A stretch of 64,000 bases of DNA from Methanococcoides burtonii DSM 6242 (lineage in GTDB: Archaea; Halobacteriota; Methanosarcinia; Methanosarcinales; Methanosarcinaceae), in NCBI RefSeq assembly GCF_000013725.1, contig NC_007955.1, positions 1,085,579 through 1,149,578 on the forward strand, read 5' to 3'. This document shows, one piece after another, positions 17,047 through 41,131 of this stretch. The notes under the pieces are model-generated. The model searched no databases, was not told the DNA's origin, and worked only from the letters and a program-made list of their open reading frames with translations. Every line of letters begins with the position of its first letter. Within the stretch, counting starts at the first letter, position 1. Both the position numbers and the translations under genes were made by a program.

Positions 17047-17347
17047 TCCTGTCTTTAACAATAACATTTGCTGAGGCCCTTTACGAGATAAGTCTGTTTG
17101 ATCGCAACGAACAGGTATTGTGAATATTAAAAAAAGAGGGTCTCATTAACATCGAGTGGGTAATTATAACGTCCTCCAAGCAAATGTTCATGATTCTAGA
17201 TCATCTCCCTGCACAATCCTTTAATTGTGATGTGGTATTTTTGCTCATTCGATTGTGATTTGCATTCGTTCTTTGAATTCCATGACGATTGAAAGGTAGA
17301 TATAAATAAATTTAGTTAGCCACTCGATATTGAAGAGATACAAAAAA
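17047..17347. other. Intergenic region between symporter and IS copy 2
   Basis: About 300 bases with no open frame or RNA that I can support. It holds AT-rich runs and stretches unlike the region before copy 1. Confidence 0.4.
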
Positions 17348-18088
17348 GGATATTGGTATCTAAGAAGCGCTTTATGTTATCAGGGCCTATATTTATGCAT
17401 GAACTGTTCCAGGTGCAAGAGCTCCAATCATAAAAAAAACGGTAAAATCAATAGATTTCAACGCTACAAATGCCATGATTGTGGGTATAACTAGTTAGTG
17501 GAGATTAAATCAACTGCTAGACCCATGTCTGTTAAACGGCAGGCTTTACAACTCTATCTTGAAGGTTTAGGATTTCGTTCAATTGGACGTTTTTTAGGAG
17601 TTAGCCACGTTTCTGTCCAAAAATGGATAAAGAAGTTTGGTCGTGAATTAGAGGATCTAAAGAGCGAAAATGAAATATCGATCGTTGAATTAGACGAAAT
17701 GCACACTTATATCGGGAACAAAAAAAATATTGTTGGATCTGGATTGCTGTTGATAGAGATGGAAAAAGGTTCATCGACTGCTCTTTTGGTAGCAGGGGAA
17801 CGGAAACAGGACTAAAACTCTGGAAAAAAATAAAGGGGAAGGAGATTGGAGAAGTGATGACTGATCACTGGAGGGCATATGCAGAGTTTGTTCCAGAGAA
17901 AATTCACACTCAATCCAAAGCTGAAACATATACTGTTGAAGGATATAACAGCATAATTAGGCACTTTCTGGCAAGATTGAGAAGAGAGTCAAAATGTTAT
18001 ACCAAGAGTCTTAAAATGCTGAAGTACTCTGTTCTTCTTTTGATGAAGTACATAAATAAAGAGATAGCTATTTTTAGCTAACAATGTC
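17348..18088 (+). mobile_element. IS1-like insertion sequence, copy 2
   Basis: About 740 bp, same orientation as copy 1. The left end begins GGATATTGGTATC; the right end ends ACAATGTC, whose complement GACATTGT matches the left end of copy 1. The differences from copy 1 are mostly single-base. No clear target duplication is seen, either around this copy or around the whole 14678-18088 block. Confidence 0.8.
17399..18081 (+). pseudogene. IS1-family transposase, copy 2, with in-frame TAG and -1 frame change
   Basis: From ATG 17399 the frame gives the zinc finger and reaches a TAG at 17492-17494 (copy 1 has Tyr there), reopens through the helix-turn-helix and first Asp, then changes to the -1 frame at an eight-A run (17720-17727). 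In that frame it is open to 18081, with WIWIAVDRDGKR, MTDHWRAY and the Glu-containing VEGYNSIIRHF. A full product would need UAG decoding (possible in a pyrrolysine-using host) plus -1 slippage. Treating it as a pseudogene is the cautious reading. Confidence 0.7.
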
Positions 18089-38915: not shown

Positions 38916-40013
38916 TTATTGGCCTTTACTCTGGCTACCTTGATCGCTGCCATCGTTCTCTTCAAAGTACCTTCTCGCCAGCAACACAAGACTTGAAACA
39001 ACAAGTATCGCCAGGAAGAACGCGATCAATGTTCCTTCAAATGTGAGGTCCTGCCAGGAGTGTACGGATACCCACATACCACTGCGTGTCACGAAGGTAG
39101 CGAATATTACCAGTATGAACGAAACTATTGCCAGCATTGGAGCAAGGAAACGGTATTCACCATCACGGACCCTTGTTGCCGAATGCAGGAATGCGGTAGC
39201 TGTTATCCAGGGTATCAGGGAAGATGTCTCGACAGGGTCCCAGGACCAGTACCATGCTCCCCATCCGAGAACCTCGTATGCCCAAAATCCACCAAGACCT
39301 ATACCTGCTGTGAGGAAAAGCCATGCCAGACGCATCCAGTTCCTTGTCAGTTTTATCCATCTTTCGTCATCGATAAGCAGTGATGCAAATGCTGTTGCAA
39401 AGGGTATCGTGAATGCAGCATACCCCAGGAACAGTATTGGTGGATGGACTGCCATCCAGGGGTTCCTGAGGAGCGGATTCATACCCTGACCATCGATGAG
39501 ATGATAGACCGTAACAAAAGGATTCCAGTTGGAGGTTTCGATAGCTCCTCCGAAAACAGCGTAATAGGTCTCGAACGGATTCTTCAAGACAAGAAGAAGA
39601 AGGAAGAAAGCTACTATTGTGAGACAGACAGCCCTTGTAATATTCATTAACTTCGTATCTGCAATCTCTTTCGTGTTTCCTGTATATCGAATAAACAGAA
39701 GGATCATAAGCGTGAACCATGTCCAGAGCAGGAACGAACCTTCCTGACCTGCCCAGAGGGCAGAAAAGCGATAGAACCACTCAAGGTCTATGCTGGAATG
39801 CAGGTAGACATAGACATAAGATGCCGATACTGTGAACAGATAATATGTCAGCAGCATGATTGCAAATGTTGTTAGAACACTACACCATAGCTCGAACTGT
39901 TTTGACCGGGAAATTAAGCGTTCATCGTTTCGCAAAAGGCCGATGATAGCCAAACCTGCTGAACCTGTACCAAGAGTAAAGGCCAACCAGATAGATATCA
40001 TACCAAAGTTCAT
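38916..40013 (-). CDS. CcmF-type haem lyase, N-terminal half (WWD domain)
   Basis: Protein of 365 residues, about nine helices. It corresponds to the front half of bacterial CcmF: HPPILFLGYA gives one haem-binding His, followed by the WWD motif (EVLGWGAWYWSWDPVET) and a WITATAFLH His. CcmF joins haem to apocytochrome c at the outer membrane face. Bacterial CcmF is near 650 residues; here the second half is the separate upstream gene at 40010-41005, with ATGA overlap. It suggests c-type cytochromes, as in Methanosarcinales with multihaem respiratory cytochromes. Confidence 0.88.
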   Translation of the reverse strand: MNFGMISIWLAFTLGTGSAGLAIIGLLRNDERLISRSKQFELWCSVLTTFAIMLLTYYLFTVSASYVYVYLHSSIDLEWFYRFSALWAGQEGSFLLWTWFTLMILLFIRYTGNTKEIADTKLMNITRAVCLTIVAFFLLLLVLKNPFETYYAVFGGAIETSNWNPFVTVYHLIDGQGMNPLLRNPWMAVHPPILFLGYAAFTIPFATAFASLLIDDERWIKLTRNWMRLAWLFLTAGIGLGGFWAYEVLGWGAWYWSWDPVETSSLIPWITATAFLHSATRVRDGEYRFLAPMLAIVSFILVIFATFVTRSGMWVSVHSWQDLTFEGTLIAFFLAILVVSSLVLLARRYFEENDGSDQGSQSKGQ

Positions 40014-41005
40014 TTTTTAGCCCCCTTACGAACTTTAGAGCCGTTATTTCGTTTACCATTAAGAGAAAATTCTGCTTTTAAGCTGCTGCTTTCAAGTGAA
40101 CGGTCCACGAGCACAAGAGAGATGATCCCGGCAACCATAAGGAAAAGACCACCCCAGATGAATGTTATGAATGGAACTGTTCTGACATACAGACTGACCT
40201 CACCACTGCTTTCATTCAATGCCTTTGGAGCTATGAACAGCTCTTCAAAAATACCACGGTCAACATAGGTGGTAGTGAATGTCTGACCCCATTTGAAATC
40301 TGTTATGTATTTGACCTGACCACTATCAAAATAAGCACCTTTCTTATAGACATCGAAGGTAACATGGGTTGCGTAGGAAGAACCCGGATATTGTTTATAT
40401 GGAGAACCTTCGAAAACAGAATGCATGTCTGTTACAGAAACTATGTAGTTCTGTCCTTCGAACTATCCGGGCGAGTCAACGGTCACGATATCCGAGCCTT
40501 CTACCTGCATGTTCGAGCTGGCAACAATACCTATGAGAATGAAAAGAATGCCAAGATGTATCACATGAGCACTTATGCCTTTGAGCTTCAGTATCCATGA
40601 TCCACGTTCCATTGCCATGTACATCTTATAGAATGTAGCTACAACCGCCATGCCTGTTAATGGAACTGTGACATCGAGCGGAAGGTTCCCAAAAGGTGAG
40701 ATGAAAGCGAAAACCAGAGAGATAAGGGCAGTAATACCCGCAACTAAGAGAGCCTTCTTTGCACCAAAGTAACCATAAAGCAGACATGTAGTGAGCAGTA
40801 CGACCAATGCTGCTGTCGGTATTGCACTCCTGTCATTGAAATATTCAGCACCCATGCTGATCTCATTACCGGTGGTGAGCTTCACGACAAGTGGTGTCAG
40901 CATCCCCAGAGTGATGAGAGCAGCAAGCAGAAGCATTGTCAGCACACTTGCCAACATGATGTTACTGCTGTTTATGATGTCTTTGCTTTCTTTCATTGGA
41001 TTCAC
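40010..41005 (-). CDS. CcmF C-terminal-half protein with in-frame TAG (candidate pyrrolysine codon)
   Basis: Read straight through, this is a 331-codon protein with one TAG at 40463-40465 (codon 181). Before it are about five helices ending in HLGILFILIGIVASS. After it come a soluble strand-rich domain (FEGQNYIVSV..., YVDRGIFEELFIAP) and a final helix (FIWGGLFLMVAGII). Together these match the layout of the end of bacterial CcmF, so the TAG lies within one domain. The next ATG is 12 codons on, without a ribosome site. It may be read as pyrrolysine; otherwise it is a nonsense mutation or sequence error. The start is GTG 41005 or ATG 40996. Confidence 0.75.
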
Positions 41006-41131
41006 AATCGTTATTTATATTAAAATATGTATCGGTATTAGTTTGAAAGTCCTGATATGAGTAATATATACAAATTTAGAAAATGTGACACCGAAATACC
41101 AAAAGCGATTCCATCTTATTGCCTATATCTG

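Follow-up and report, generated by a model that had tools for sequence, protein, structure and literature searches.

This analysis concerns ccmF1, which encodes the C-terminal half of the split heme lyase CcmF, in Methanococcoides burtonii DSM 6242, where it carries an in-frame TAG. The gene lies in a stretch of 64,000 nucleotides (hereafter the window) that runs from 1085579 to 1149578 in a genome of one contig and 2,575,032 bases. It occupies 40010-41005 on the minus strand and has 331 codons when UAG is counted as sense, starting from a GTG at 41005 or an ATG at 40996 and ending at a TGA at 40012-40010. The TAG is codon 181, at 40463-40465 (40465-40463 in the direction of reading), and it is the sole in-frame stop of the frame 41005-40010, which has no indel. 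Its position as the proposed pyrrolysine codon follows from the reading of the frame and from alignment with the copies L006-L011 and L033. The codons before it (1-180, 40466-41005) encode transmembrane helices and the beginning of an extracytoplasmic beta-domain, while those after it (182-331 plus the stop, 40010-40462) encode most of this beta-domain and a final transmembrane helix. The in-frame TAG is real. Read on the plus strand, 40010-41005 is broken by stops and holds no gene.

The identity of the gene is supported by its domain, its predicted fold and the gene order. An initial annotation had described a single TAG splitting a 331-codon frame for the end of CcmF, and this is borne out by the joined product, which matches CcmF_C (PF16327) over residues 15-297, across the TAG, with an E-value of 1.2e-17 and 64.6 bits against a Pfam cut-off of 28.7. 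A domain search of the same product found none of the MtmB, MtbB or MttB methyltransferase domains. A structure model of the read-through product, generated with Lys in place of the UAG residue, reached a predicted local distance difference test (pLDDT) score of 82.6 and a predicted template modeling (pTM) score of 0.68, and shows five helices, the beta-domain (168-278) and a final helix. A sequence search against solved structures gave no real match for the product, but a fold search aligned residues 9-300 of the model with residues 341-630 of CcmF in 6ZMQ (266 residues aligned, Z 13.0, root mean square deviation 4.7). In the model codon 181 falls at the end of the second strand of the beta-domain, shortly past the fifth helix.

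The TAG is shared by most of the genus. Searching 112 genomes of the family gave a ccmF1 match in 79, and 69 copies were aligned column by column. An internal in-frame TAG is present in 8 of the 79 genomes, always in one alignment column, and the other 71 are without one. Seven of these eight belong to Methanococcoides (that of the window and six more), and the eighth, G032, to another genus of the family, so that 7 of 10 Methanococcoides copies have TAG at the codon-181 column, with a protein identity to the window copy of 71-73%. A base error at this site, which the initial annotation had left to resequencing, is answered by the same TAG occurring independently in the six other Methanococcoides genomes. 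Neither is there further disruption of the frame in relatives, since the eight TAGs in this column are the only internal ones among the ccmF1-bearing genomes. The nearest relatives of the window genome, M. seepicolus and two metagenome-assembled genomes (MAGs), have CAT (His) at the column in a ccmF1 otherwise 95% identical to that of the window. Among the aligned copies the column elsewhere holds Ser, Thr, His, Gln, Ala, Glu, Asn, Phe, Lys, Tyr, Ile or Asp, and with these 12 residue types it ranks 43 of 329 in entropy and is not an invariant position. Because the column is variable, the residue at codon 181 is probably exposed on the outside of the extracytoplasmic domain. Throughout the seven TAG-bearing Methanococcoides copies 63 of the 331 codons are identical, the TAG among them.

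The gene tree calls for three changes at the TAG column. In the simplest scenario TAG was gained once at the base of Methanococcoides, was lost once in the M. seepicolus group and arose separately in G032. The G032 copy (L033, G032:C1:46433-50308) has its TAG in the same column as Methanococcoides and its nearest relative, L035, has TCA; its TAG is apparently of separate origin.

Looking at selection on the two sides of the TAG gives a second view of the frame. Synonymous divergence (dS) was measured for two pairs, each of the window copy and a TAG-bearing relative; at 1.6-2.4 it is near saturation. The ratio of nonsynonymous to synonymous divergence (dN/dS) before and after the TAG is 0.108 versus 0.070 for L002-L006 and 0.119 versus 0.102 for L002-L010, and over all pairs measured it is similarly low on either side (0.06-0.12 before, 0.07-0.14 after), with third-position changes dominating in the downstream part. 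When evolution without coding constraint was simulated, 150 codons remained free of stops in about 2% of cases at 0.36 changes per site, which is about the observed nucleotide divergence of the part after the TAG, and in 0.04% at 1.7, the synonymous divergence. The equally low dN/dS before and after the TAG indicates that translation continues in frame beyond it, into a part that is functional and under purifying selection.

The means to translate it are present in the same genome. The genes to which the suggestion of pyrrolysine in the initial annotation had pointed, pylTSBCD, form a complete set in one cluster: a tRNA-Pyl with anticodon CTA (CUA), together with adjoining genes for PylS, PylB, PylC and PylD, all of which score over the equivalog cut-offs. 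PylS was found in 11 of 11 Methanococcoides genomes searched and also in G032, and every TAG-bearing ccmF1 copy comes from a genome with PylS. Stop usage was estimated from a 464-kb sample of the genome by crude calling of open reading frames (ORFs) of at least 150 amino acids; here TAG terminates 10 of 329 ORFs (3%) versus 19% of stop trinucleotides. Additionally, TAG occurs inside the Pfam domains of other conserved genes, namely a PolD small subunit-like gene and genes for a radical SAM protein, a glycosyltransferase and a HerA-like protein. An RNA element resembling the pyrrolysine insertion sequence (PYLIS) was looked for downstream of the ccmF1 TAG, and no stable or covarying structure was seen there (z scores of -1.17 and 0.46; 1 of 27 pairs changed on both sides). 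Such downstream structure is not generally required (PMC2933860).

Given these observations, tRNA-Pyl very probably decodes the UAG of ccmF1, so that a full CcmF1 is made whose pyrrolysine occupies a tolerant and probably neutral site. We infer both the identity of the residue put in at codon 181 and its neutrality. PylS would charge tRNA-Pyl (CUA) with pyrrolysine made by PylBCD, and the charged tRNA would take UAG as sense simply by competing with the release factor, with no special RNA signal. Ribosomes would then run on to the TGA and complete a CcmF1 of 331 residues, in which pyrrolysine would sit on an outer, sequence-variable strand of the extracytoplasmic domain and would not be a catalytic residue. 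Together CcmF1 and CcmF2 would attach heme to c-type cytochromes. The UAG may have arisen at a tolerant site, likely from a neighboring codon such as CAG, and may persist because its translation is efficient enough.

Several points weigh against this interpretation. The retention of TAG through the genus and its second origin in the same column exceed what would strictly be expected under neutrality. A recurrence in one of about 329 columns, or in one of some tens of highly variable ones, is notable, but it amounts to one extra event only. UAG also serves as a stop in this genome, as the ten sampled ORFs that end in TAG show. Among genes ending this way is pylB itself (L032:4251-5363, minus strand), where read-through would add 42 residues overlapping pylC; this TAG end has been reported for M. 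burtonii (PMC2933860). Finally, an introduced amber reporter in M. acetivorans was read through at 20-30% (PMC2933860), and by analogy a truncated CcmF1 product of 180 residues may therefore coexist with the full one or dominate over it.

The first of these points leads to an alternative in which the UAG is kept for its function, either because pyrrolysine aids CcmF1 or because CcmF1 output follows the supply of pyrrolysine, tying cytochrome c maturation to growth on methylamines. Such a role would fit two findings: the TAG has persisted in the window genome and six others at species level although synonymous divergence is near saturation, and every internal TAG falls in a single column, where it apparently arose a second time in another genus. 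When ccmF1 is deleted in M. acetivorans, a trace of holo-cytochrome is still made (PMC9084895), and this lowering rather than abolition means that dosage could matter. We nevertheless consider a selected UAG unlikely, as a nearly identical gene in M. seepicolus and the two MAGs has His at this codon, the column takes many residue types and does not count as invariant, and CcmF2 is reported to hold the catalytic and heme-binding residues (PMC9084895). If the UAG were under selection, methylamine metabolism would be linked to cytochrome maturation and the two independent origins would represent convergence.

Another explanation is that the UAG is read by a near-cognate tRNA and not specifically by tRNA-Pyl. 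The sequence is blind to the residue inserted and shows no conserved RNA signal downstream, which leaves some room for this. It is very improbable, however, given that the genome encodes a dedicated cognate tRNA (CUA), that the TAG-bearing copies all come from PylS genomes and that UAG is the only type of stop within the body of the frame, with no UGA or UAA.

Still less credible is a true stop at the UAG, with ccmF1 divided a second time into two parts that are each translated on their own. This genome does use TAG as a stop at times, and a 138-codon frame with an ATG follows the one in ccmF1. This first downstream ATG though lies 13 codons past the TAG, inside the beta-domain and with no Shine-Dalgarno sequence, and in unsplit relatives its Met is conserved. 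The residues FEGQNYIVSVTD between the TAG and this ATG are conserved, although they would be untranslated if the gene were split a second time. The initial annotation had noted the lack of a ribosome site at this ATG, which is correct but is a weak argument, since the start of ccmF1 has no Shine-Dalgarno sequence either; the conserved Met likewise limits what the ATG can say. A sequencing error or a decaying pseudogene, to which the absence of TAG in the three nearest relatives (95% identical) and the single assembly of the window strain might point, is already refuted for the genus by the same TAG in six independent genomes at 71-73% identity, a dN/dS of about 0.1 on both sides, the lack of any indel or second stop and the conserved synteny with ccmF2, and we give it next to no weight.

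Reading the UAG as pyrrolysine places ccmF1 beside the few documented pyrrolysine sites outside the methylamine methyltransferases. The classic one, from one species, is Thg1, the tRNA-His guanylyltransferase of M. acetivorans, which has an in-frame UAG at which pyrrolysine was physically observed and is described as a neutral case (Heinemann et al. 2009, as summarized in PMC2933860). In both cases a pyl-bearing methanogen has an in-frame UAG in a gene for something other than a methyltransferase, at a site where relatives have an ordinary codon. They differ in that the Thg1 codon is reported there from M. acetivorans only, whereas the ccmF1 UAG is common to seven Methanococcoides genomes and one of another genus, and in that pyrrolysine was seen physically in Thg1, while in ccmF1 it is proposed from sequence. 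The proposal in the initial annotation that UAG is translated outside the methyltransferases is thus supported, and the novelty it implied is partly pre-empted by Thg1 (PMC2933860). Compared with MtmB, MtbB and MttB, the UAG would be decoded by the same tRNA-Pyl in the same organisms, but the ccmF1 site is variable and can be His.

With this comparison, ccmF1 would be an unusually well conserved addition to the known non-methyltransferase pyrrolysine genes, and an unusual protein to be among them. That most of a genus retains a UAG in a gene for cytochrome maturation is good evidence for routine translation of UAG in that genus, and it accords with the expansion of the genetic code already known from these organisms. 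UAG is said to be a regular sense codon in certain archaea under a "Pyl code" reportedly described by Kivenson et al. in Science in 2025, with proteomics reportedly placing pyrrolysine in many M. burtonii proteins, and M. burtonii is said to have been proposed to read all of its TAG codons as pyrrolysine. The ccmF1 gene would belong to this set, and the novelty of a UAG translated outside the methyltransferases would in part be pre-empted by that work as well. One implication is that gene callers truncate or miss such UAG-containing proteins. The species with TAG and those with CAT also offer a clean test site for the neutrality of stray pyrrolysines.

Downstream of ccmF1 lies ccmF2, the N-terminal half of CcmF (Cytochrom_C_asm, PF01578), at 38916-40013 on the minus strand. 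The genes adjoin with the C-terminal half first, and the start of ccmF2 overlaps the stop of ccmF1 as ATGA at 40013-40010, as the initial annotation had correctly noted; this synteny is conserved in relatives. The arrangement resembles that of M. acetivorans, where ccmF1 and ccmF2 (MA3305/MA3304), the C-terminal and N-terminal segments, form a putative operon (PMC9084895) and the split halves are likewise adjacent with the C-terminal one first. A difference is that the ccmF1 copies of the large-genome genus g13, probably Methanosarcina, have no in-frame TAG. A G-rich, Shine-Dalgarno-like stretch, GGGGCTAAAAAA (GGAGGTAAAAAA in L010), lies in the last ccmF1 codons before the ccmF2 ATG (40013-40024, minus strand) and is a candidate ribosome site for ccmF2. 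Immediately upstream of the ccmF1 start, at 41006-41036 on the minus strand, is a block beginning ACCGATACATATTT that resembles a B recognition element (BRE) and TATA box, is strongly conserved in nine Methanococcoides genomes and may be the ccmF1 promoter. Given its place directly before the start and the lack of a Shine-Dalgarno sequence at the start itself, the ccmF1 transcript is probably leaderless or nearly so.

Some other TAG-containing frames were also noted. The PolD small-subunit-like gene (DNA_pol_E_B, Metallophos and OB-fold; L086:3606-5423, plus strand, genome positions 1823606-1825423) has TAG at codon 430, in the phosphoesterase domain. Over the matched region most of its Methanococcoides relatives are free of stops, and the near relative G023 and the incomplete genome G016 show one TAG each, at this codon or another. 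If this sequence is right, a replication protein that is likely essential would contain UAG. In a radical SAM/SPASM protein (L081:18049-19251, plus strand, genome positions 1188049-1189251) the TAG is codon 73 and falls within the radical SAM domain; only the window genome has it, and all ten relatives, 88-97% identical, are without a stop. The frame with TAG at 60918-60394 of the window, used as a negative control, has several TAA and TGA codons in more distant relatives and was rejected as spurious. At 17330-17815 on the plus strand of the window, a transposase-like frame with zinc-ribbon-like CxxC motifs, a helix-turn-helix and an in-frame TAG at codon 55 is possibly a decayed insertion sequence.
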